DNA from: Turnera subulata
Lineage: Eukaryota > Streptophyta > Magnoliopsida > Malpighiales > Passifloraceae
Length of the DNA stretch: 64,000 nt
Direction of reading: 5' to 3'
Assembly: GCA_028386065.3 (NCBI GenBank)
Contig: JAKUCV010004254.1
Span: 308,827 to 372,826 of the forward strand
Made by a program: the position numbers and the translations under genes. A model generated the notes under the pieces. That model searched no databases. It worked only from the letters and a program-made list of their open reading frames with translations, and had not been told where the DNA came from. Positions 4,000 through 55,378 of the stretch are shown here, in pieces (within the stretch, counting starts at the first letter, position 1; each line of letters starts with the position of its first letter).

Positions 4000-4533
4000 G
4001 AAAATTCAGCGGCATGACCTGTTTTGGGATCCTTCTTGTGTGTTTGTCTCTTGAAAGATCCAAAGACTCAAGATTTGTAAGGTTTGAAGTAGTGTCACAA
4101 TCTGGCTTGGCTATGGGTATGGTGTATGTTGCGCAGTTGGAACTTCCTCTCTCTATATTGCTGCAGTCGATTTTCATGGTATATCAACGGTTTATCTGTG
4201 CTCGGAACGGTTTGGCTCAAAAGGAACAGTTGGGTCTTTAATAACACTACTGCAGATATTGATAGAATTGTGGACCTGTCCCTTGTCCATGCCACATTGT
4301 GGATTAAGGCGCTTCAACGGTCAACAAATCGGCAGTGGGTAAGGGCCTAAAAATGCTTCATGAGTCTTGGAACTTCTTAAACTTGCACATGTAATTGCTG
4401 AAACTATCTGTACAATCTGTATATGGTTTCTGTGCGTTCATCAGTGTTTTGGTGTTTTTTCCTTTGTATTGAACTCCCTGTAACTATCTTTGTGATCATC
4501 AATAAAGTTTTAGTATCAAAAAAAATAAAAAAA
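4000..4533 (+). pseudogene. LINE 3' end with poly(A), second LINE family
   Basis: Near 4200-4340 the sequence encodes 'GTVWLKRNSWVFNN' and 'LVHATLWIKAL', which is typical of the tail of plant L1 ORF2. It is followed by a 3' UTR ending 'caataaagttttagtatc' and an A-rich tail at 4518-4533. It may be the continuation of the LINE at 723-1551, whose frame has the same style; this is inference. It is frameshifted and not functional. Confidence 0.55.
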
Positions 4534-16610: not shown

Positions 16611-18127
16611 TGTTAGTGTAATATGCCCAAAAGCCAATCAATGGATGTTTATTTGTAATCATGTATACACATTAAGATTATTCCAATAAATATGATTATG
16701 AGATAATCGCTTGCACATATTTATAACCCTAGAATATTTATATATTCTTAAAATGTCCCTAGTCGATTATTATTATGGACGAGTAGTAATAATAAATTAA
16801 GACTAGCGTATGTTAAGAATTGTATGAGATACGAATTCTACATACGGGTACAAGTTAGAGAACTTGTGGACTGGACCGACCCACATAAGGACCCTACATG
16901 GAACGTTATATGATTGTCATTAGTGGTTCTTATATGTATTGTCCTTAGACCTGAGATCATCAAGGTTCCCAGCATATGAGTCGTATACTTTGATATTATT
17001 CCTAGTCATCCGTAACTGGGTGGTCTTAAGGGTAATCATTGGGTATATGATAAATGTGTAGTGGGTTTTTATTGATCAAGATGGGATTTGTCCAACCCAT
17101 AACGGGTATATTATTAGTTGGGCCTCTTGATAGAGTTGAACTGTAAAAGCATGGCCATGCTCGCATTATATGATATGGTGATATCATTAGTATCCGTTAT
17201 ACACAGTTAACTCGGGAATCAAGAAACTAAGATTAAACATATACGAGATTGACGTTTTCATGTCTCGGTTTAATCTTGATAATGGGACGAAAGGACGATG
17301 ATATGTTCCGAGGCATATAGAATCAGTACTGATCTTGTCATTCGGGTAGCAATGATGTGTTGCTAGACGCCGCTCTTTGCTTATAATTGTAAAATGAGAT
17401 TTTACAATTATTGTTGAACGTTACAAGTGCCTACAGGGTGACACACATAGAGTTGTTGATTCGAGCAGGTGGTTGGACCATGGTTCGACCGGGTGTGGTT
17501 GGACCATAGTTGGACCATGGTTGGACCAAGGTCGTTTTGGGCTGGTTTGGTTCAGTGATTGACAAAATTATTGGACCAAATTAATGCTGTGATGAGTGTT
17601 TGTACATTAGTGGAGACATGGTAATGTGGAGACATAATCATATAAGATAATGGGCCATCATGTTGGCCATTATCCCATTGTCTCTTAGCACTAATTGGGG
17701 GTAGAGTAATCAGATTACTCTTGATCCTTCTCACTCTCTCTTGCCTTCTGAATTCTAGGTTTTTCAGAGCAAGAAACACACACACATCTTCCTCTCTTCT
17801 TTGTGAAAGAAAGAGATACCATAAACACCACATATAGCTCCCGGAAATCCGTACCTAGCACCACGGTTCGGGAGTGCTCGGGTTGGAGATCGTGAGACAG
17901 TTTCCAGATGTGATCGACGGTTCGTGTGGATACCATAGAGGAGCAGGATATCCTTCCGGCTCTAGATGATTCGGTTCTTCAGTTAGGTGAAAGATCCTAA
18001 CCGTTTCAGCTATGTTTGTTTTGTTGTTCGGTTTAGTTGCTTCACATGGATCCTTCATGTGTTTCTGGGTTTCCGCTGTGCATTTGTTGCATTTAGATTG
18101 TCTATTTTGCATGACCGGAAGCTTACA
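16611..18127 (+). mobile_element. Copia family A 3' LTR (copy A1), 1,517 bp
   Basis: It starts TGTTAGTGTAATATGCCC and ends AAGCTTACA. The same sequence recurs at 33672-35030 (minus), 45208-48127 (plus, interrupted) and 53846-55378 (minus), which fixes both ends. It contains runs of 'ggttggaccatgg' near 17470-17530. Its right end lies within exon 3 of the thioredoxin pseudogene. Confidence 0.9.
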
Positions 18128-18645
18128 CTTCTTTCATGAATATGAAAGTTGGCGTTGAGTCCACTCCGCAATCCTCAGCAACAAGCTAAAAGACAATAGA
18201 CAGTAAACTAATCAGATAACAACCTTAGATAAAAAAAAGAAAAAGAAGAAGTTTTACCTTCAATTCATCCACATCCACCGTCATGAAAATGACATTGGTA
18301 AACTTCTTAGCCAACTCATCAAGTACAGGGGCCATGAACTTACATCACACCCTGAAGCAGTAAAACCCACCACATTCTAATCCAATAACAAAAAAAAAAA
18401 AACCCATCAAATAAAATCAGGCAAAGGAACATGAAACCAATGCAAATAACAAGGAGGGTTTGCTTTGTTAAAATGATACACACCAGTTTGTTGGACTCTG
18501 GTCCCTCAGACATCTGGTCGAGCCACATTCTCGTGTCGCAGCAGGCGATCACTTGTCCCTCCTCGCCGAAACAGGCTTTGAAATCGGTGGTTTGAGCTAT
18601 GGAAATGTTAACTGCACTGACCCAAATATTTCTCCGCTGGATCAA
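18128..18645 (-). pseudogene. Thioredoxin h pseudogene, truncated by copia LTR A1
   Basis: Minus-strand exons match the intact gene at 31.5-32.0 kb. Exon 1 is 'GEEGQVIACCDTRMWLDQMS' with the start codon lost. Exon 2 ends 'FTNVIFMTVDVDELK' but carries a deletion that destroys the active-site region ('VGFTAS' then frameshift). Exon 3 is 'EDCGVDSTPTFIFMK', cut at 18128 by the LTR. Introns lie at the same positions as in the intact copy. Three independent lesions mean it is not functional. Confidence 0.8.
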
Positions 18646-33671: not shown

Positions 33672-35030
33672 TGTAAGTTTCCGGTATGCTATATGACACT
33701 CATATACAAGAAAAACATGCAACGGAATTTCCGGAAACAACATAGGAACACATGTGAAGCGTATAAATCGAATAACAATTTTCGTACCTTACACGGTTAG
33801 GATCTTCCACCTAACTGAAGTGCCGGAATCAGCAAGAGCAAGACAAGGTATCCCGCCCCTCTACGGTATCCACACGAACCGTGATCAAGCCGGAATCGTC
33901 ACACGAACACCAACTTCGAGCTCTCCCGAACTGGTGTGCTAGAAACAGATTTCAGGGAGGATGAGTTTGTGGTGTTTCTCTTCTTTCTCAAAGAAGGTGA
34001 TGTGTGTATGCTCTTTCAAGCTCTCAAGAACACTCTCAAGAACAAAACTCAGTCAATGGCATGAAGGAGAGGAAGTAATCAGATCACTCCAATCCACACA
34101 TCAAAAGCTAATGGAGATAGTGGAGGTCATGGCCAACACATTGGCCCATTACCCACCACAATTATGTCTATACATAATAATGTCTCCACTACACCTTATC
34201 AACATACACAGCACCTAAAGTGGCTCAATAATGCTGACAATTAGTGAACCAACCAGCCCAAAACGACCCTGGTCCAACCACGGTCCGACCACGGTCCAAC
34301 CACAAACCGGTCCAACCACCTGCTCGAATCGACGGTTCTATGTGTGTGACCCTGTAGGCACTTGCAACATCCGGCAATAATTGTAAAATCTCATTTTACA
34401 ATTATTAGCAAAGAGCGGCGTCTAGCAACACATCATTGCTACCCGAACGACAAGATCAGTACTGATTCTAAATGCCTCGAAAACATGTCATCGTCCCTTC
34501 GTCCCATTATCAAGATTAAACCGAGACATGGAATATGTCAATCTCGTATATGTTTAATCTCGGTTTCTTGATCCTCGAGTTAACTGTGTAAAACGGATAC
34601 CAATGATATCACCATATCATAATCCGAGCACGGCCATGCATTTACAGTTCAACTCTATCAAGAAACCATCCGATAATATACCCGTTATATGGGTTGGACG
34701 AATCCCCTCTGGATCATACAAAACCCACTACACACTTATCATATACCCAATGATTACCCTTAAGTCCACCCAGTTACGGATGACTAGGAATAATATCAAA
34801 GTATATGACTCACATGTTGGGAACCTTGACGAATAGTCTTAATTTATTATTATAACCCATCCATAATAATAATCGACTAGGGACATTTAAGAATATATCA
34901 AATATATATTCTAGGGTTATAAATATGTGCAAGCGATTATCTCATAATCATATTTATTGGAATAACCTTAATGTATATACACGACTATATACGATCATCC
35001 ATTGATTGGCTTTTGGGCATATTACTAACA
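33672..35030 (-). mobile_element. Solo LTR, copia family A (copy A2), 1,359 bp
   Basis: In plus orientation it begins TGTAAGTTTCCGG and ends ATTACTAACA, the reverse complement of LTR A1. It is flanked by perfect GCACC duplications (33667-33671 and 35031-35035). It lacks roughly 170 bases present in A4 near 55030-55190. No internal sequence is attached, so it formed by LTR-LTR recombination. Confidence 0.9.
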
Positions 35031-39619: not shown

Positions 39620-41382
39620 GCCGACACGTGGCACAATCAATGAATATATCAGAGAAACCGACCCAACGTCACATCATAAACATCAGAAATCTGGCCCTTC
39701 GGCCCAACATCAAAACACGTCGCCCGACCTCGGGGACATCAACAATAGCACAGCGGAAGCAATTATGTGAATACCCGACCTTAAATCACTTGGGCCTATT
39801 CACCTTTCCTTTACACCTTTTTCATAACCATCATCTAACATCTTTGGAGTCGCCACCCAAATTTTATTAAGGGACAAAAAACTTGGGAAAAAACCCTTCA
39901 TGTGACTCCATTAGGCAACTGGATAACGAACCAAAGATGCTAGACCCGGGGATTCGTCATGGATGGGAAGGTATTAGGCACCCATCCAGGTTGGGTCGAA
40001 ACTTTGTGCAATTAGAGGATTTTGTATGCCTTGTGCAAGTGCGCAAGTGTGAGCACCAAAACATATAATAACTGAATATTAAAAAGAAAGGGGAGAAGAA
40101 GAAGATTGGGCTTGAGTTTCCACCACTAGAAACCACCTACGTACCCCAGCGACCAGGTTCAAAGCCCACATAGTTCTTGACATGACATCACAACATTCAC
40201 ATCATCATTAACATCAACATCTCAACAATAATTGGTCAGACAAAAAGGGATTAGGATTACCTCTTGTAGCCCACCTCTAGCTCCTTGGTTTGGGTTGTGC
40301 CTCCCACACAATTTCCTCCCACTCCTCAACTCAATCTTGGAGTTCTTCTTGATTTTCCCCTTTGCTGCCTTCAATGGATGATGCTACCCACGAAATTCTA
40401 CAAGATTTTTTTGCCTATAAAACTATTTCCGAGGCTGGAAGAGACAGAGTTTCTCCAATCTTCAAAGCTTTATGAAGAGTGTTTGTGTAATAGAACGTCC
40501 CCTTGAAATGTGAGAGAGGGGTCCTATTTATAGTGTTCTGGATAGCGTAGAGGCGTGGACCAACTTAATGATCAAAGTAAAGGCCAGAAATATGGGCAAA
40601 AACTGAGTAGAATCAGAATACGGCGAAAATCGGGGAGAAAACGCGTTTCTAGGTGTGCATGACTGCCATGGCCGGCGGTCATCCTATGGATGACAGCCAG
40701 GCCGGGCGGTCATGGGTGGAAGACCGCCCAGGCCCGGCGGTCATCCCGAGAAGACCGCCCGCCCCTACGTGTCTCACCCGTTCTTTCATTTTTCGGTCCC
40801 GATTCTCCCCTAATTCCTCCCTGATTGATCCTGCCACGTAATTAACCCCTAGACTGCCCAGAATCCTATACTTTCTTGATTACTGCTCCTCTCAATCATC
40901 TCCTAATTGATTGATTACACATTGATTCCTCATTTTAAGCCAAAATCTTACCAAAAACATTCTTGCTATTAAGGAATGATTTAACTCACTCTGATTTTCC
41001 ACAAAAATCAGAGCTAAATTTGTCTGCAAGCAAGGTGTTAATGGGCTGTGCAACTCTGATGAAAAGTCCATACCTTATTAAATTGGACCCTTACATTTAT
41101 CTTCAATCCCAGAATAAATATAATTGGGTTTAATAAATAAACAAGCCAAAATTTAATGAGATAAAATACATTTTAGCAATTTAGTCCTTAACATATCCTA
41201 AGATTAAATTGTCTCATTAATCCAAGGCATATAAAAGTCTTAATTACTATAATATATAAATTCTACTAAAATTAAACTCCATCCATGCTTCAACCCAAGA
41301 CTAACTCATCAATCTTATGATTCAAACATGTCTGGAGTCTCATCTCAATATAATTTTCATGGGTCAAATTTGGGTGTTCACA
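39620..41382 (+). mobile_element. Gypsy-type LTR, family N copy 2
   Basis: The 3' end 'gggtcaaatttgggtgttcaca' at 41382 is the same as at 722. Further 5' are 'agtcgccacccaaattttatt' and 'ggtattaggcacccatcc', phrases common in plant gypsy LTRs. It contains four GACCGCC...GGCGGTC hairpins with starts at 40661, 40692, 40722 and 40753, i.e. every 30-31 bases. The 5' boundary is not resolved and the given start is approximate. Confidence 0.55.
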
Positions 41383-41659: not shown

Positions 41660-42525
41660 CTAACTAAGGATATTATCACCCCCCGTGGGGATTTTGCCAA
41701 CTAAGGATATTATCACCCTCCCGTGGGGATTTTGCCAACTTAGGATATTTTCGCCCTCCCGTGGGAATTTTTCCAACTAAGGATATTATCACCCTCCGGT
41801 AGGGATTTTGCTAACTAAAGATATTATCACCCTCCCGTGGGGATTTTGCCAACTAAGGATATTATCACCCTCCCGTGGGGATTTCGTTAACAAGGATCAT
41901 CTCACCTGTGCTAACTAAGGATATCATCACCCTCTCGTGGGGAATTTGCCAACTAAGGATATTTTCACCCTCCCGTGGGCATTTTTCCAACTAAGGATAT
42001 TATCACCCTCCCGTGGGGATTTTGCTAACTAAAGATATTATCATCCTCCCGTGGGGATTTTGCCAACTAAGGATATTTTCGCCCTCCCGTGGGAATTTTG
42101 CCAACTAAGGATATTATCACCCTCCGGTAGGGATTTTGCTAACTAAAGATATTATCACCCTCCCGTGGGGATTTTGCCAACTAAGGATATTATCACCCTC
42201 CCGTGGGGATTTCGTTAACAAGGATCTTCTCACCTGTGCTAACTAAGGATATCATCACCCTCTCGTGGGGATTTTGCCAACTAAGGATATTTTCACCCTC
42301 CTGTGGGCATTTTTCCAACTAAGGATATTATCACCCTCCCGTGGGGATTTTGCTAACTATGGATATTATCACCCTCCCGTGGGGATTTTGCCAACTAAGG
42401 ATATTATCACCCTCCCATGGGGATTTTGCCAACTAAGGATATTATCACCCTCCTGTGGGGATTTTGCTAACTAGGATCATCTCACCTATGTTAACTAGGG
42501 ATATTGTCGCCCTCCTGTGAGGATC
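41660..42525. repeat. 38-bp minisatellite, about 21 units, with higher-order periodicity
   Basis: The unit is close to 'ctaaggatattatcaccctcccgtggggattttgccaa'. Variants (ttttcg, atcatc, cggtagg) recur in the same order about every 315 bases, for example the 'ggatattttcgccctcccgtggg' variant near 41751 and 42067. This indicates a higher-order unit of about eight monomers. Shorter 'ggatc(a/t)tctcacct' spacers mark unit borders. One frame is open for 69 codons only because of the repeat. Confidence 0.88.
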
Positions 42526-43056
42526 TCATCTCATCTCGGGGGTTTTGGGATTTTCCTGGTCCCAAGAGTTAACGGGAATCATCCCGTGGTTCATCTACAT
42601 CGTCTCGGTGCTCCTCTATGTCGGGACAATGTCCCTGGGATATCTATCCCTCAACATCTTCATCCACTCTACTTTAGGGGTATCTGCCCCTAACGACTCT
42701 CATCAATTCTACTTCTATCTTAGGGGCATCTGCCCCTGGTCTCGGCTGGTCTAGATCGAGCGTGTTCGCGGACCCTTCGGATCCTCCCTCATTCAAGGCA
42801 ATCATCCAAAGAATAGGCTCATCACGTTTTCAAAAGACTCGTCATTCTAAAGCAAAGTACACGTCTAACCCATGATAACACATATCATTGTAAATTCAAG
42901 TAAAAGATCATAAAATGCCCCTTAAATGATAAATACGAATGTTTTCCTCTCTTTTTCTAATATTCTTTTTTTCCTCTTCTTCCTCTTTCTCTCCCAATTT
43001 TTTTGGAAAAAAATTTTCGGGTGAATAGTGTCGGCAAGGTGGTCAAGGGGAGAGAT

Positions 43057-43137
43057 GACCGCCACTTCCTGGCGGTCTTGTATGGATGACCGCCAGGCGT
43101 GGCGGTCTTCTCGTCATGACCGCCCGTGCTGGCGGTC
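43057..43137 (+). repeat. Three GACCGCC...GGCGGTC hairpins at 30-31 bp spacing
   Basis: Units lie at 43057-43077, 43088-43107 and 43118-43137. Each has 7-8 complementary bases per arm (GACCGCCA/TGGCGGTC in the first two) around a 4-7 base loop whose sequence varies. They repeat the design seen in LTR N at 40661-40760 and stand about 160 bases upstream of the DUF7745-like ORF. Confidence 0.85.
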
Positions 43138-43300: not shown

Positions 43301-44597
43301 ATGAGTGAAGATTTCTGTTCCAAGGTGTTCCAATGGATGGAGAGCATCCCCTAAACGCGTCGCTTCGACCTCAAGCCAACCGGACTTAGTGGCTTGTTCG
43401 ACCTAGCCTATGTGAAGATTGATGAAGGCTTGATTCATGCTGCTGCTATGTTCTGGGATCATGACCATCACGTGTTCCGCTTTGTCCCTTCCACGGCAGA
43501 ACTCTGTCCCACGGTAGAAGAATTCGGCACGCTTTTGGATGTAAAAATAGGGGAAGATATTGCCATGATCTCCCCCACCGCAGTAGCTGAGCTGGAGGTT
43601 AATTCCTTTCTGTCCCTTGACGGCAACCAACTGAAATTCTTGCGGGGCAAGGGGGAATTCATGAACTTATCTCCCATAGTTGATCAATACTTTGTTAGTA
43701 CTGCATCACACGGATATCTAAAATGCAGCCCTTCCTGGAGAAGCAGACGTGACCATGCCCTAGCTTTGGTGATGGTAAGCGAATTCTTGTTAGTCACCCG
43801 TTCTGGCACGTGCCCCCTCGGTGTTGGCGCTTTGGTGGCTAAGCTCTTTAACTGCTGTAACGTGGTGCCTTCTGTTTTGGGCGAGACTCTTATTTGCTTG
43901 GATACTCTGACATCTTATCCTTGCAAGCCCTTGACTAGTTCTCCCCTCCTTCTCCAGGTATCATTCTCGATTTATCTGACTTCTAAAATCGCATTTACTC
44001 TCCCTCGCTTCTGTACAAAACTCGTGAACTCGTTTCTTTTTTCAGATGTGGATATACGACCATCTCCAATTGATCCTCCCTCCAAAGTCTGGCTGGTATA
44101 CCCCCATGGACTATCATGAGCAAAACCTCATCGTTGTTGTTTCTTCTACCAAAGATTGGGTGCTTTTTATGAAGGATATGGCTAACAGCCAAATCTTGTG
44201 GTGTTGCCCTTGGTTCCACCTGCAAGCAGTCGTCTTCCGCTTGCCCGGTCAGAAGGTGGTGGTCCTCCCAGGGGTTTATCGTTCTACCCAATATTATTCG
44301 GCTAGAATAGCTAGACAGTTTGGCCGTGCTCAATTCACTCCTCTGCCTTCATGCTCGCCCCTCGACATGTTAACGGACAATCGTATCATAAAGCTCATGC
44401 ACAGATACTGGAGTCAGCCCATAAGAGTTAAAGTTCTTAATCCGAAGGCCCCCTTTTCTTCCGAGGGATATCAACAATGGTTGAAGAAATACATGGGTTA
44501 TTTTGAATGGATCCTTTTAGGTTACAAGAATCTATTTTTAGGATCAAATGTTCGCTTAGAACCCGAATCTCCTAGCGACAATGAAGAAGAAGCTTAA
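43301..44597 (+). pseudogene. DUF7745/plant-mobile-domain-like protein, one premature stop
   Basis: Exon 1 from ATG 43301 ('MSEDFCSKVFQWMESIP', then TAA at 43352, then 'FDLAYVKIDEGLIHAAAMFW', 'FRFVPSTAELCPTVEEFGTL', 'GVGALVAKLFNCCNVVP') to about 43957. An intron with GT at 43958 and 'tttttcag' at 44045 is predicted. Exon 2 reads 'LPPKSGWYTPMDYHEQNL', 'NSQILWCCPWFHLQ', 'YYSARIARQFGRAQFTPLP' and ends in an acidic tail. The style matches the DUF7745 family found in plant transposable-element settings. Only one stop breaks an otherwise open gene. Family assignment is from recalled motifs. Confidence 0.6.
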
Positions 44598-44762
44598 GCA
44601 TACTGGATGTTTTGCTAGGATAAATTTTATGACATGTGTAATGCATGCAAAATAAATGAGTGAATGAACTCCCTTTTTCTTTCTTGTCAACCTTTAAACT
44701 CTTATTAGTAAAAATTGGCTGGACCCTGAATTTTATCACATTCTTCCCTTTTGAGAGCACAA

Positions 44763-45207
44763 AGAATTGGATCTATATTATACATAATATTTCTTCAACT
44801 AGTCCAGGTTGACTGGCTCTCGAACTCATTCCCGTCCAAGTCTCTAATCTTTGTAGCACCTCTTGACATGAATTCTTTGATGATGTAGGCCCGATCCATT
44901 TAGCCTTGAATTTGCCCCTAGGGTCATGCACGGGTTGTATTATTTCTTTCAACACCTTGTCCCCTTTCTTCAATCCTCTCTCTCGAACTCGCTTATTGAA
45001 GGCTCGAGCTATCCTCCTTCGGTACCCCTGCACCTGGTGTAAGGTTGATAATCGTTTTTCTTCGAGCAATGCTAATTCATCAAGTCTTTCTTGTACCCAT
45101 TTTGTCTCAGGAAGCTCACTCTCCTAAGCCACCCTCAAGGAATGCACTTCAAGTTTTGTTGGCAATACAACTTTCATGCCGTACACTAGAGAATATGAGG
45201 TTGCACC
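44763..45207 (-). pseudogene. Ty3-gypsy integrase C-terminal fragment
   Basis: On the minus strand: 'ATSYSLVYGMKVVLPTKLE', a stop, 'ESELPETKWVQERLDEL', 'RRRIARAFNKRVRERGLKKG' and 'IIQPVHDPRGKFKAKWIGP'. This is the end of the integrase of Athila/Tat-type elements (family words YSLVYG.EAVLP, RRIARAFNK.V, D.RGKF.P.W.GP). It is cut at 45208 by the copia LTR A3. Confidence 0.85.
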
Positions 45208-45637
45208 TGTTAGTGTAATATGCCCAAAAGCCAATCAATGGATGATTGTTTGTAGTCAAGTATACACATTAAGGTTATTCCAATAAATATCGTTTATGAG
45301 ATAAACGCTTGCACATATTTATAACCCTAGAATATTTTATATTCTTAAATGTCCCTAGTTTATTGTTATTATGGATGGGTTGTAATAATAAATTAAGAGT
45401 AGCATATGTTGAGAATTTATATGTGATATGAATTCCACATACGGGTACAAGTTAGAGAACTTGTGGACTGGACCGACAAACATAAGAACGCTGCATGGAA
45501 CGTTATATGTTTGTCGATAGCGGTTCTTATATGTATTGTCCTTAGACTTGAGATCATCAAGGTTCCCAACATATGAGCCGTATACTTTGATATTACCCTT
45601 GGCTATTTCGTAAATGAGTAGACCTTAGTGTAATCAT

Positions 45638-47037
45638 TGAAAGATCGAAAAGACTAAGCTAGAGGGGGGTGAATAGCTTTAGACCTAAAACTGAAAATAT
45701 TTGCAGGAAATAAAATGCGGAATTGAAAGAAGGACACAAGAAATTTTTATACTGGTTCACACACAACGAATTTGTGGCTAATCCAGTCCTTCAAGGTCCA
45801 CTTGAAGAGTTCACTATCTACCGTTAAGCTTCCGGGTGCTTAACAAACCGTTTACAACCTAGGAATTCTAATCACAAGAATCCTACACACTTGCTTGAAG
45901 ATACCTCACTTCAAGACTTCTCTCAAGGAAAGAAAATCACTCTTCCTATGAGTAGTTACAAGGGAACAAACCTCCCTTTCAGTGTATGAACAACACTACA
46001 AAGATTACTCAGACAAAAGCTCTCTCAAGAGTGGGTATGAGTTACAATTAAGCTCTAATAAGGCAACTCTCAATAGTCTCAAAGGAATTGGCTCTTAAAC
46101 TTGAATGATTGTTTTGCAATGAATGATGAATGAATAGAGAGTTGATTAGTTAGAAACAGAGCTGAAAATGCTCAATTTGTAGCTCTGAAAAGTCATGGAG
46201 CCGTTTGAAATCCACCCAAGAAAGAGCTTTAAACAAAACATAGTGGGTGCTAAAAGTTGTCAGCAATAACGGCCATAACATCGATGTTTTAATTTTCAAC
46301 ATCGATGTTTTGTCCAGCAAATTTGAATTTTTGGACTAACGGTAACTAAAACATCGATGTTCTCAAACCCAACATCGATGTTATTTTGATTCTGTGTAAA
46401 AAAACCTTTAAAGCTTCATATTAAGAACATCGATGTTTTGAAAACCAACATCGATGTTATTTTACTTCTGTGAAAAACGATTAAAACTGACCATTGAAGA
46501 ACATCGATGTTTATCAATCCAACATCGATGTTTTGCTCATGTAAAAGTATTTTCAAATGCAACGGTCATTATAACATCGATGTTATGGATTCCAACATCG
46601 ATGTTATTTGCCTACTGCCAAATGTTGGAAATCGTTGAAGAAATCACAACATCGATGTTTTAATTACAACATCGATGTTTTGGCACTTCTGCCAAATTTT
46701 GAGAAAGACTTGAAAACACAGAACATCGATGTTTTTGGGAACAACATCGATGTTATTGACTCAAAATACAATTTTATGACTGAAAGCATGCTATGAAATG
46801 TATGAGTGAAATTTGTTTTGTTTGAGCCAATGCCTAAGAGAAGTTGAGTGTTTTACCTTGTACAAATGGGTCCTAACTTCTCTTGCTCTTCTTTGCACTT
46901 CAACTCTTGATCATATCTTCACTTGAATTCTTGATCACTTTGGTTTTGCTTGATTTCTTTTTGCTTCATCTATGTTATGATCTTGGTTTGTCATTTATCA
47001 AAACCTGTAATGAACCATGAAGACATAGGTTCTAACA
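45638..47037 (-). mobile_element. Solo LTR H (1,400 bp) nested in LTR A3, carrying a palindrome array
   Basis: In plus orientation it begins TGAAAGATCG and ends GGTTCTAACA, so in minus sense it starts TGTTAGAACC. It has perfect ATCAT duplications at 45633-45637 and 47038-47042. It includes the phrase 'ctagaggggggtgaatagc' often seen in plant LTRs. No coding sequence is present. Its notable content is the array of AACATCGATGTT palindromes at 46277-46754. Confidence 0.88.
46277..46754. repeat. Array of 14 perfect AACATCGATGTT palindromes in 7 pairs
   Basis: Starts: 46277/46298, 46350/46371, 46426/46447, 46500/46521, 46573/46594, 46648/46668, 46722/46743. Within a pair the distance is 21 (once 20); between pairs it is 73-76. 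Every copy is exact over 12 bases, while the sequence between them varies. In RNA each pair can form a 12-bp stem with a loop of 8-9 bases, or any copy can pair with any other. Confidence 0.97.
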
Positions 47038-48128
47038 ATCATTGGGTATATGATAAATGTGTAGTGGGTATTGTATGATCCAGAGGGGCTTTGTCCAACC
47101 CATATAACGGGTATATTATCGGATGGTTTCTTGATAGAGTTGAACCGTAAATGCATGGCCATGCTCGGATTATGATATGGTGATATCATAGGTATCCGTT
47201 TTACGCGGTTAACTCGAGGATCAAGAAACCGAGATTGAACATATGCGAGATTGACACATTCCATGTCTCGTGTTTAATCTTGATAATGGGACGAAGGGAC
47301 GATGACATGTTTCCGAGGCATATTGAATCAGTACTGATCTTGTCGTTCGGGTAGCAATGATGTGTTGCTAGATGCCGCTCTTTGCTTAAAATTGTAAATA
47401 AGTTTACAATTATTGTTGGACGTTACAAGTGCCTATAGGGTCACACACTTAGAGCCGTTGATTCGAGCAGGTAGTTGAACCAGGTATTTGAGTTTGTGGT
47501 TGGACCATGGTTGGATTGTGGTTGGACCAGGGTCGTTTTGGGTTGGTTTGGTTCACTAAATGTCTGATTTATTGAACCATAATTAGTGCCATGTGATGTG
47601 TAATCCCACCAAGAGTTAGTGGAGCCATGATTAGCTAAAAACTAATCATGTTGGCCAAAGGTGTTGGCCACTTTGTCCCTTGCTTTGTAAGTGGGGTTTG
47701 ATTAAGCATAATCTGATTATGCTATAGGGAATTATCACTTTGAGTCTGACATTTTTTAGAGGATTGAGCCTTGAGAGGGTCTTGAGAGTTCTTGTGAGTT
47801 TCAGACCATACACAAGAAGAAAATACCACAACCTCTAGCTTCCGAAACCTGCTGCTAGCACATCAGTTCGGGGGTGCTCGGGTTGGTAATCGTGTGACGA
47901 TTCCAACTAGTTATCACGGTTCGTGTGGATACTGTAGAGGGGCAGGATTGTTGTCCGGCTCTTGCTGATTCGGTTCATCGGTTGAGTGAAAGACCTCAAC
48001 CATTTCCAGGTACGATTTTTTTTTATTCGGTTTACTCTGTTTCACATGGATCCTCTATGAGTATCGGTATTTCCGCTGCACATTTGGTTGCATTTGATTG
48101 TCAAATTGCATGACCCGGTTACTTACAG

Positions 48129-48141
48129 TGGTAGTGGAGCC
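48129..48141 (+). promoter_or_regulatory. Primer binding site of copia A3
   Basis: TGGTAGTGGAGCC, one base after the LTR, is a copia-type initiator tRNA-Met site. Confidence 0.8.
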
Positions 48142-48430
48142 TCTTGTGAAACGCTAAACCGAATTTGTTGTGCATATGTATGATATGCTTCTGTAAATAT
48201 ATATGATATGTTGTATATGATGTAGCATGATCATATATATAGAATTCAATTCTTGTATATGTGATATATATTGTGGTTGTGTTTGTCAAAAGTGTTTTGA
48301 CAATGAATGCTTGATTGGTATGTGATATCAATCAAGGTGTTTATGGCAGTAAGTCGAATGAGATCGACAAGGAAAAATCGATTGTCGGTTTGCATATAGA
48401 ACGATTGTCGTTCTAGTACAGCAGGGCCAA

Positions 48431-49039
48431 AACAACGATGTTTGTGAGTCAAACATCGATGTTCACATGAGTTTCGCCTTGGCCGGATCTTCCAAACATC
48501 GATGTTGTGTGACAAACATCGATGTTCTAATGAAGATTGGCTTTGGCAGAGCCTTGAAACATCGATGTTCACGCGCTAAACATCGATGTTCTCAGGACGA
48601 GTGGCCTTGGCAGAACTCTCAAACATCGATGTTCAAGAGTTAAACATCGATGCTCTAGAGTTCTGCCGAATTGTTATGAGAATTCAGAATTCTTAAACAT
48701 CGATGTTTAAGTTGAAACATCGATGTTCTTGAGTTTTAGAACCTCAAACATCGATGTTTAAATGTTTTACATCGATGTTTAAAACTACTGCCAAAAATCT
48801 TGAATTTCCAGAACCTCAAGACATCGATGTTCACAAGTTAAACATCGATGTTCTTGGTCTCTGCCAAAAGATTTCGAGTTCCAGAATTCTCAAACATCGA
48901 TGTTTAAGAGTTACACGTCGATGTTCAAGAGTTAGACATCGATGTTCAAGAGTTAAACATCGATGTTCTTGAGCACTGCCGAGTAGTTGGGAGAATCAGA
49001 TTCTCACATCATCGATGTTCATTGTTAGACATCGATGTT
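48431..49039. repeat. Second AACATCGATGTT array, in the 5' leader of copia A3
   Basis: About 18 copies start at 48431, 48452, 48495, 48515, 48558, 48579, 48622, 48643, 48696, 48716, 48747, 48768, 48820, 48841, 48893, 48914, 48935, 48956, 49008 and 49028 (20 positions counting degenerate ones). Most match exactly or with one change. Partners are 20-21 apart and pairs mostly 63-74 apart; 48893-48956 is a run of four. Spacers contain a recurring 'ctgcc' word as in array 1. The array lies between PBS and gag. Confidence 0.93.
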
Positions 49040-49410
49040 CGCATGTAATTTTGGTTTCCAAATTTACAAAATATCAATATATGATTCATCAAGAACATGC
49101 ATGTAATGTATTGGAATAATATGTTGATGAAAATATTAAGTTCTTCTTGTGTTGCCTTCCATGATAAGCACTCATCAAGGTTAAGATCAACAATTGGTAG
49201 GTTTTGCCAAAGCAAGGTACCAATGTTTATCCTAGCAAGGTGCGACGCGATAATTGTCCTACTTATCTAGTAGTGAAATATGGATCTTGGCCTACTTATA
49301 TAATTGTCTTGATTTGTATAGTAGGAGCATCATTTAATAGAATTCCTTGTTAAATGATTTTGTATGCATGACTCTTATTTGTGTGAGTTGATAATTGTTG
49401 TAGAATTCCC

Positions 49411-50702
49411 ATGGCACAAAACACTAGCACAATATCACTGCGATCGGTCCTTTAGAAGGAAAAGCTGAATGGGAATAACTTCCTAAAATGGTATCATAAT
49501 TTGAGGATAGTCCTCTAACAATAAAATAAATTGTATGTCCTCGAAGGGCCTGTTCTAAATGAACCGACGCCTAGTGCTTCTAGGGCTGGAAAGGATGCTT
49601 ACAAGAAGCTTCTTGATGATGCATTGGATGCATCATGCCTTATACTTATAACCATGGACTCTAAGCTTCAGAAGCAACATGAGAAATTGGGGGCGTTCGA
49701 TGTGATCGAACACCTGAGAGGTATGAGACCTCTAAGGCATTGTTCCAATGCAGGATGGCTGAGTCATCACTCGTAAGACCTCATGTGCTCAAAATGATTG
49801 GATACATTGAGAGCCTCGAGGGTCTTGTTTTTCCTTTGCTGAAGGAGTTGGCCGTTGATCTAGTCCTGCAATCGTTGCTGGATAGTTACAGCCAATCTGT
49901 CATAAGCTTCAATATGAATCATCTTGACAAATCCTTGTCTGAGTTGCTCAACATGTTAAGAACAGCTGAGCAACAGATGAAGGCAAACAATCCAACAGCA
50001 TTATGATGGTTGGAAGTAGCAAGGGAAAGGGTAAGGGCAAGGTGAAGAAATTTCTCAAAAAGTTTGGTGCATCTTCTTCACAAGTGCTGAAACCCAAAGG
50101 TGGTGTTGCAAAGGAAGGTCAATGCTTCCATTGCAAGAAGTCCGGTCATTGGAAATGTAACTGTCCTGTTTACCTTGAAGAGGTAAAGAAGCAGAAGGGA
50201 GGTGAGACTTCCGCTTCAGGTATTTTCGTTATAGAAGCTAATATCTCTATCTCAGCATCATGGGTAATAGATACCGGATGTGGTTCTCACATTTGTGTAA
50301 ATGTGAAGGAACTGAGAAAGAGTAGGAGATTGGCAAAGGGTAAGATAGACTTGCATGTGGGAAGTGGAGCAAGAGTTGCTGCACTAGCCGTAGGAACTTA
50401 CTATCTTACCTTACCGAGTGGTTTGGTTTAGAACTAGACAATTGTTATTATGTACCAACCATAAGCAGGAATTTTATTTCTGTTTCTTGTCTTGACAAGA
50501 AAGGCTTTGCATTTGTAATAAAGGACAATTGTTGTTCTATTTATTTCAATGATGTTTTTTATGGTGGTGCGTATTTAAGCAATGGTTTGTATGTTCTTAA
50601 CCTAGAAACTGCGATCTATAACGTTAATACGAAGAAGGTTAGAATGAACGATTCTAATGAAACCTACCTTTGGCATTGTCGATAGGGCCATATAAATTTG
50701 AA
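49411..50702 (+). pseudogene. Copia A3 gag and protease
   Basis: ATG 49411 opens 'MAQNTSTISLRSVL', then TAG at 49453. Further frames give 'NEPTPSASRAGKDAYKKLLD', 'LGAFDVIEHLRGM', 'VLKMIGYIESLEGLVFPLL' (UBN2-type gag), a CCHC knuckle CFHCKKSGHWKCNC near 50123-50162 and the protease 'SWVIDTGCGSHIC' near 50260. The frame continues to the GAG_pre-integrase zone ('YLWHCR', stop, 'GHINL') and then switches to family B sequence near 50700. Several frameshifts and stops are present. Confidence 0.85.
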
Positions 50703-53520: not shown

Positions 53521-53845
53521 CTGAAAAAAAAAAGGAAGAAAAATAGCACCCAAATGTGGAATTTTAGCACCATTTTGTTGAATTTGTTGATGATCCACTT
53601 CCTATATAAAGGGTGTGAATTCATCTACACAACACACAACTCACATAAGAGTAGAGGGTGTGAGAGAGAGTTGCAGGAAAAGAGTGAAGGAAAGGGAGAA
53701 AGAAGAAGTTTAGTCCTTCTGTTTTGAGGAAGAAGAAGTTTAGTCCTTCTAAATTTCAGAAGGGACAAAATAGTTCCTCTTATTTAGTGAGTGACAAAAT
53801 AGTGAGAAAATACTTTTGGAGTATTTTTGGGAAACACTTGGGAAA
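53521..53845. other. Unassigned region left of copia A4
   Basis: There is a small tandem phrase 'aagaagtttagtccttct' (53702 and 53731). No gene is recognised. Confidence 0.35.
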
Positions 53846-55378
53846 TGTAAGTTTCCGGACATGCAAAATAGACAATCTAAAGGCAACAAATGCACAGCGG
53901 AAACCCGAAAACACATGAAGGATCCAAGTGAAGCAACTAAACCGAACAACAAAAACAAACATACCTGAAACAGTTAGGATCTTTCACCTAACTGAAGAAC
54001 CGAATCAGCTAGAGCCGGAAGGATATCCTGCTCCTCTACGGTACCCACACAAACCGTCAATCACCAGCCGGAATCGTCTCACGATCTCCGACCCCCGAGC
54101 ACTCCCGAACCATGGTGCTAGCTACGGATTTCCGGGAGCTATATGTGGTGTCTATGGTATCTCTTTCTTTCACAAAGAAGAGAGGAAGATGTGTGTGTGT
54201 TTCTTGCTCTGAAAAACTCAGAATTCAGAATACAAGTGTGAGAGAGGGAGAGCGTGATCAGATCACAAAAACACACCCAATTAGTGCATAGTTAATTAGA
54301 CAAAATGGCCAACATAGTGGCAAACATAATGGTCCACCAAAAAGACGATTATGATGGCCATTATCTTGTCTACCACTAGTGCACTAACCAATACATCACA
54401 ACACTTATTTTCGTTCAATAATTCTGTCAATCACTGAACCAAACCAGCCCAAAACGACCCTGGTCCAACCACGGTCCAACCACGGTCGAACCCTGGTCCA
54501 ACCACGGTTCAACCAGCTGCTCGAATCAACGATTCTATGTGTGTGACCCTGTAGACACTTGCAACGTTCGACAATAATTGTAAAATCTCATTTTACAATT
54601 ATAAGCAAAGAGCGGCGTCTAGCAACACATCATTGCTACCCAAACGACAAGATCAGTACTGATTCTATATGCCTCGGAACATGTCACCGTCCTTTCGTCC
54701 CATTATTAAGATTAAACCGAGACATGGAAAACTTCAATCTCGTATATGTTTAATCTTAGTTTCTTGATCCCCGAGTTAACTGTGTAAAACGAATCCTAAT
54801 GATATCACCATATCATATAATCCGAGCACGGCCATGCATTTATAGTTCAACTCTATCAAGAGGCCCATCTGATAATATACCCGTTATATGGGTCGGACGA
54901 ATCCCATCTTGATCAATCAAAAACCCACTACACATTTATCATATACCCAATGATTACCCTTAAGACCACCTAGTTACGGATGACTAGGAATAATATCAAA
55001 GTATAAGACTCATATGCTGGGAACCTTGATGATCTCAGGTCCAAGGACAATACATATAAGAACTGCTAATGACAATCATATAACGTTCCATGTAGCGTTC
55101 TTATGTGGGTCGGTCTAGTCCACAAGTTCTCTAACTTGTACCCGTAGGTAGAATTCATATCTCATATAATTCTGAACATACGCTAGTCTTAATTTATTAT
55201 TACAACCCATCCATAATAATAATCGACTAGGGACATTTTAAAAATACAAAGTTTTCTAGGGTTATAAATATGTGCAAGCAATTATCTCATAAACGATATT
55301 TATTGGAATAACCTTAATGTGTATACAAGATTACAAATAAGCATCCATTGATTGGCTTTTGGGCATATTACACTAACA
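53846..55378 (-). mobile_element. Copia family A 3' LTR (copy A4), 1,533 bp
   Basis: In plus orientation it begins TGTAAGTTTCCGGAC and ends ATTACACTAACA, the reverse complement of A1. The adjoining 'atctcccacttgc' is the purine tract in minus sense. It is the longest, apparently undeleted LTR of the family here. Confidence 0.9.

Follow-up and report, generated by a model that had tools for sequence, protein, structure and literature searches.

Why should the solo LTR of a plant retrotransposon contain one and the same 12-bp palindrome 14 times without a mismatch, and in pairs of nearly constant spacing? In the window (the whole stretch of 64,000 bp of Turnera subulata DNA analyzed here), the palindrome AACATCGATGTT forms an array at positions 46277-46754 (array 1), in which 14 exact copies are arranged in seven pairs, the successive gaps being, in order, 21, 52, 21, 55, 21, 53, 21, 52, 21, 54, 20, 54, and 21 bp. 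This recount reproduces the initial annotation, which had reported 14 perfect palindromes in pairs 21 (once 20) bases apart. When up to two mismatches were allowed, 38 occurrences were found in the whole window against a mean of 3.66 in shuffled sequences, and none of the 100 shuffles reached 38; chance or base composition was thus rejected as the origin of the array. The assignment of the array to a solo LTR also holds: the 1400-bp sequence at 45638-47037 (minus strand) has TG..CA ends and a poly-C tract near its 3' end, and is flanked on both sides by the 5-bp TSD ATCAT, read from the sequence at 45633-45637 (left copy) and 47038-47042 (right copy). It belongs to a Sirevirus-like family, designated here as family A, and array 1 occupies element positions 284-761.

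The solo LTR is an antisense insertion within another LTR, that of family B, which it splits (45208-48127, plus strand) and which was recognized from the other copies of this LTR in the window, at 16611-18131 (plus strand), 33672-35030 and 53842-55378 (both minus strand). Two of these three copies align without interruption across the insertion site and the third with a small gap; an example of the empty site is 17034-17041, which joins 45639 to 47037. Each family B LTR copy also contains GGTTGGACCA-like 11-bp repeats (17470-17532, 34271-34303, 54462-54515 and about 47498-47531). The outer LTR is followed by a PBS-like sequence, TGGTAGTGGAGC, at 48129-48140 (plus strand), identified by sequence reading and with a relative at position 4305 of locus L008, and then by a second array (array 2, 48431-49039) of 20 sites with 0-2 mismatches, which lie on the same lattice (see below) in the leader between the PBS and gag. 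Array 2 is absent from the initial annotation and belongs to a different copia element than array 1. At 49411-49455 (plus strand) a copia gag frame begins, decayed and with a stop after 14 codons, and the relative of this frame in L012 (1128-1961) matches PF14223. The genome query with family B gave at least 82 matches, from the best 40 of 2449 candidate places. Family B lacks the Sirevirus marks: its junction is CA/GTGG, and the final 60 bases of its LTR are free of a poly-C run. We take this family to be Angela/BARE-like.

The search of the genome (518.7 Mb in 7125 contigs) for motif pairs, a check named in the initial annotation, revealed 31,041 exact pairs 17-26 bp apart, against 15 for the reversed control. 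The control is at most 15 and not a clean zero because of what appear to be artefact pairs. The mirror of the motif, TTGTAGCTACAA, occurs genome-wide as 15 exact pairs, 20-21 bp apart and inside normal arrays; it is present in ten arrays, mostly pair for pair. The possibility that it represents a second palindrome dialect was rejected, since in 10/10 arrays the stretches are complemented in place: complemented without reversal, they match family members with 75-99% identity over 78-183 bp (101-286 bits), whereas the same stretches uncomplemented give at most about 30 bits. As they match relatives only in this manner, the mirror motif is likely a fault of assembly, polishing or handling, and not biology; we know of no replication process that complements in place without reversing. 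The base-complemented stretches, about 80-180 bp long, are located in L040 (354-516) and in L070-L078 (within 416-671).

Spacing was analyzed in 39 arrays with 564 sites, of which 17 arrays came from ten 10-kb loci (the surroundings of the first-listed motif pairs), 20 from 19 family B leaders and two from the window. Twenty leaders had been fetched, and one of them, L027, with a single site, was left out of the counts together with L001-L004 (which lie inside L005), arrays of fewer than four sites and sites with more than two mismatches. No motif with up to one mismatch was found in L015 and L017-L023, L020, L022 and L023 being a quarter to half N; L016 is all N.

Successive gaps in the 39 arrays are mostly 20-21, 30-33, 42-44, 50-55, 63 and 72-75 bp. 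The pairwise distances of 15-260 bp (n = 2901) gave R = 0.563 at a period of 10.5 bp with the phase near zero, while other periods were weaker (R 0.18-0.30 at 10.1-10.2 bp and 0.18 at 11.0 bp); with the long gaps jittered by up to 5 bp, R did not exceed 0.158 in any of 500 runs. Of the successive gaps, 500/525 deviate by no more than 0.2 turn from a whole number of turns, as do 232/256 long gaps; the other 25 successive gaps deviate more strongly. The lattice is present in each family alone, with best periods of 10.6 bp in A, 10.5 in B, 10.6 in C and 10.7 in D and E together. With related spacers collapsed, p was about 2e-16 for 68 clusters and about 5e-8 for 29 clusters, and the loosest clustering, which left seven independent spacers, gave p of about 0.01. 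Exact pairs genome-wide number 20,231 at 51-54 bp versus 377 at 56-59 bp and 48 at 35-38 bp. Exceptions to the lattice exist and are concentrated in some arrays: 20 further arrays, chosen for a 56-59 bp gap, display weaker phasing (R 0.40 at 10.6 bp), and collapsed to 36 spacer clusters they peak at 12.3 bp (R 0.445), with R 0.356 at 10.5 bp. The proposal that a protein could bind every site on one DNA face is strongly supported and extends beyond its original wording. A 10.5-bp comb over tens of thousands of pairs argues that the constraint acts on double-stranded DNA, which is read on a single side. Outside the plant, a pair pattern of 19-22 bp was found in five stretches (L045-L049) of two assemblies in a 257-Gb prokaryotic collection; these stretches, from a Tannerella MAG and a Kiruna MAG, are runs of a 21-bp unit in open frames (97-142 codons stop to stop) with 7-residue repeats, unrelated to the plant arrays. 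Viral contigs yielded one stretch with the pair pattern.

The constraint on the palindromes, which had been supposed from array 1 itself, is seen when copies are compared. Between array 1 and L012, the core is identical at 140/140 positions, while the spacers share 61% and the LTR flanks 90% identity. The consensus of the sites is RACATCGATGTY, in which positions 2-11 each have one base in about 97% of cases or more (lowest 547/564) and the edge positions are A/G and T/C. A symmetric variant, GACATCGATGTC, accounts for 28/564 sites in the sample; in one branch of family B (L036, L038, L039, L041 and relatives), many pairs have it as their second site. In the pairwise comparison, for which 28 of the 39 arrays were used, core, spacer and flank identities were 0.966, 0.542 and 0.713 in family A, 0.910, 0.565 and 0.659 in family C, and 0.934, 0.774 and 0.862 in family B, the core values being biased upward since the sites were picked by motif similarity. 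In B3 the same three values are 0.962, 0.883 and 0.920, and in subfamily B2 they are 0.892, 0.820 and 0.937, with the core below the flanks. In the two most diverged families, cores are conserved and spacers diverged. The nearest family B pair (array 2 of the window and L024) has 0.984 identity in core and spacers alike, which is expected if selection acts on active lineages and copies drift after insertion.

The palindrome array is not peculiar to the window LTR and is common to several element lineages. In family A it occupies U3 of the Sirevirus-like LTR, and among the relatives the same LTR is followed by copia gag in L009 and L013 (in L009 also by pol), and a pol frame lies on the inner side of the LTR in L012. 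A second copia lineage (family C) bears the array near the LTR end, and in a third one (family B), as well as in an element designated family D, the array is situated in the leader. The family D array is at 5094-5521 of L014, where the LTRs are 94% identical (BLAST) and the gag belongs to PF03732, which we take to be gypsy-type. The polymerases of A and C share 46% identity over RT-RH and those of A and B about 29-38%, in pieces; organism-named relatives among the matches listed for the RT query from L009 show at most 78% identity. Further arrays, assigned to group E (L009 8570 and L013 8741), lie in front of an ORF that follows the A-type gag further downstream, a position in which Sireviruses carry env. 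The PF20167 match of this ORF (L013) is below the cut-off, and PF20167 is found in the same protein in five Citrus proteins among the matches listed for the A polymerase.

Long spacers of different families are at least 60% identical in 361/13,154 pairs, versus 11 pairs in one base-composition shuffle and 22 in another, and a D spacer is 93% identical to an E spacer over 30 bases. Judging from these likenesses, array modules were probably exchanged between elements, and because of them the evidence from the several lineages is not fully independent. Two further words were noticed in the long spacers. AACGGT(C), reminiscent of the plant mitosis-specific MSA element, is enriched in family A (L009, L012, L013, L005 and array 1 of the window), with 11 occurrences against 0.4 expected. 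The word CTACTGCCAAA / TTTGGCAGTAG recurs in families A, B and C and is perhaps a second site or a trace of shared descent.

The arrays are a Sirevirus-type repeated motif (RM), i.e., of a known kind. According to the available text of the RM description (PMC2829016), the palindromic boxes are present at least 8 times in the upper LTR half, start 200-400 bp in, form clusters extending over 300-500 bp and followed by a TATA box, and are also found upstream of the env gene; the RM is called Sirevirus-specific, and the flanks of its boxes are diverged. Family A is similar in place, copy number, symmetry and diverged flanks: the window LTR has 14 copies against the 8 or more described, and they fall at positions 284-761 of 1400, as described for the clusters. 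A TATA box is located about 96 bp after the array in L009, and the window copy has a TATA-like match only at position 1286, far downstream. The poly-C run lies about 20-25 bp from the LTR end in both the window LTR and L009 (about 21 bp in Sireviruses); the CA/ATTGG junction precedes the PBS in L009 and L013, the window solo LTR being devoid of a junction. In family C (L006, L011) the CA/ATTGG junction is present, and poly-C was not seen. The Sirevirus RM has a CGG-CCG core, which is lacking in AACATCGATGTT and likewise in the Tnd-1 box ACAATCGATTGT, counted as RM in the available text and having the ATCGAT centre in common with the motif studied here (PMC2829016).

Unlike the RM as described in that text, the sites studied here are paired, with their centres on the 10.5-bp lattice, and the same box is also found in elements failing the Sirevirus marks, against the stated Sirevirus specificity; in the text of PMC2829016 the word 'helical' appears only in a reference title. 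We found no description of helical phasing of such palindromes in the literature searched, most subscription papers lying outside it, and a text search for the 12-mer, its 10-mer core or the mirror gave nothing on plant transposons among the titles listed. Within this literature, the pairing, the 10.5-bp lattice, the sharing beyond Sireviruses and the scale were not found described and would thus be new relative to the Sirevirus RM.

A role of the array as a regulatory module, one of those suggested in the initial annotation, is likely. We consider, with a probability of about 70%, that the arrays are double-stranded DNA operators for a candidate cooperative dimeric DNA-binding protein. Each RACATCGATGTY palindrome would be a putative site for such a dimer, binding to two sites separated by two helical turns would be cooperative, and additional pairs, placed 3, 4, 5 or more full turns away, would prolong one protein face along the DNA. 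Since the array of the Sirevirus-like LTRs is part of U3 and precedes the promoter, it would most likely be an enhancer there, and the output in family A would most likely be transcriptional activation; in other lineages the array is located shortly upstream of gag. Insulation or anti-silencing is possible, above all for leader arrays. The arrays of B and D lie downstream of the LTR, where they would also be transcribed. As several lineages use one site, we infer that a host-encoded factor is likelier than an element-encoded one. Somewhat short of even odds, in our estimate, is the wider proposition that a probably host-encoded candidate protein sits along one helical face of thousands of phased arrays, that its operator was taken up, partly via module exchange, by four or more lineages of LTR retrotransposons from both superfamilies, and that phasing is perhaps a rule for all Sirevirus-type arrays.

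The palindrome arrays in the LTRs of Sireviruses became known in 2010, and to our knowledge their mechanism was never tested, both hairpin RNA and cis-regulation having been proposed. The 10.5-bp lattice makes the mechanism testable by phase shift, and two sites 21 bp apart represent an easy protein bait. The occurrence of this operator in elements other than Sireviruses suggests that a single host handle is reached by convergence, or traded, among unrelated elements; if true, the host-protein reading would mean that a plant has an 'operator lattice' spanning its genome.

The initial annotation had offered an alternative at the RNA level, in which each pair makes a 12-bp stem with a loop of 8-9 bases. 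Such stems might serve the element in packaging, dimerisation or translation, or give rise to host small RNAs, as has been proposed for the palindromes of maize Sireviruses. The stems do form, as the array folds far better than its shuffles (z -10.3, 0/100), but any inverted pair folds. Hairpin-type covariation at the outer edge was recorded for 238 distinct pairs pooled (z 6.9), but only family B shows it clearly, with z 5.3 at the outer edge and z 4.5-5.3 at the spacer ends, and in this family the loop edge is opposite (z -2.7) and the signal could stem from the relatedness of the B sequences; in A the outer edge is weak (z 2.2) with none at the spacer ends, and C as well as D and E together give no positive signal beyond chance. 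No Rfam family matched at 44500-50500. In maize, palindromes of Sirevirus LTRs are clustered in the cis-region, hairpin-prone and, according to the available texts, attract small RNAs; they resemble the present ones in being hairpin-prone LTR clusters, and differ in sequence, CACCGGAC..GTCCGGTG (PMC10760457, PMC5311732). An RNA function predicts no 10.5-bp phasing across single-stranded spacers: the spacing tracks B-DNA, and inter-hairpin gaps of 31, 43, 53 and 73 bp need no phasing in RNA. Moreover, in L009 (family A) the array lies upstream of the TATA box. On these grounds an RNA function seems to us quite improbable. That the array is a satellite, or arose by plain tandem copying of a 73-bp unit, without any constraint is hardly credible: TRF does give units of 73-76 and 64 bp, and very recent copies, such as array 2 and L024, have equal core and spacer identity, but family A spacers average 54% against 97% for the cores, and several in-phase spacing classes cannot arise by copying one unit. 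By the core versus spacer divergence and the multiple in-phase spacings this origin was rejected.

It is also possible, though unlikely in our opinion, that the protein recruited by the same lattice is not a conventional activator but one that lifts or prevents silencing, or that acts as an insulator for the element. One short motif is densely arrayed in non-coding parts of the elements, and its CpGs are retained (changed in 32/1128 cells, versus 60/4512 at other core positions) amid CpG depletion, the observed/expected ratio being 0.42 in spacers and flanks and 0.26 in the window LTR outside the motifs. Precedents for such arrays are the VANC sites, same-orientation motifs whose binding protein is encoded by the VANDAL DNA transposon itself and whose arrays evolve by repeat gain and loss (PMC5735166), and the Drosophila gypsy insulator with its 12 Su(Hw) sites in a 340-bp array of the 5' untranslated region (PMC2374998). 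The VANC sites are similar to the arrays studied here as dense short motifs in non-coding DNA of the elements, but they are not called palindromic in the available text, whereas our motif is palindromic (PMC5735166). The gypsy insulator sites, as described in the text available, are asymmetric, 12-bp long and separated by AT-rich DNA, in contrast to the palindromes of a plant; the leader arrays of B (window 48431-49039) and D (L014 5094-5521) are placed as in this insulator, and those of A and C, being LTR arrays, are not (PMC2374998). Both systems are functional analogues and not relatives. Against anti-silencing, Pfam scans of 14 frames in the array-bearing loci, which had no VANC model, revealed no further DNA-binding gene, the matches being gag, pol and RNase H domains, the sub-threshold PF20167 and a weak nuclease match.

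Besides the two arrays of the palindrome, the window contains GACCGCC..GGCGGTC dyads in two short arrays about 2.4 kb apart (40659-40760 and 43054-43137), which repeat every 30-31 bp (about three turns) and bear the classic Sirevirus CGG-CCG signature. Between the two dyad arrays, a 38-bp tandem repeat array extends over about 860 bp (41662-42524).
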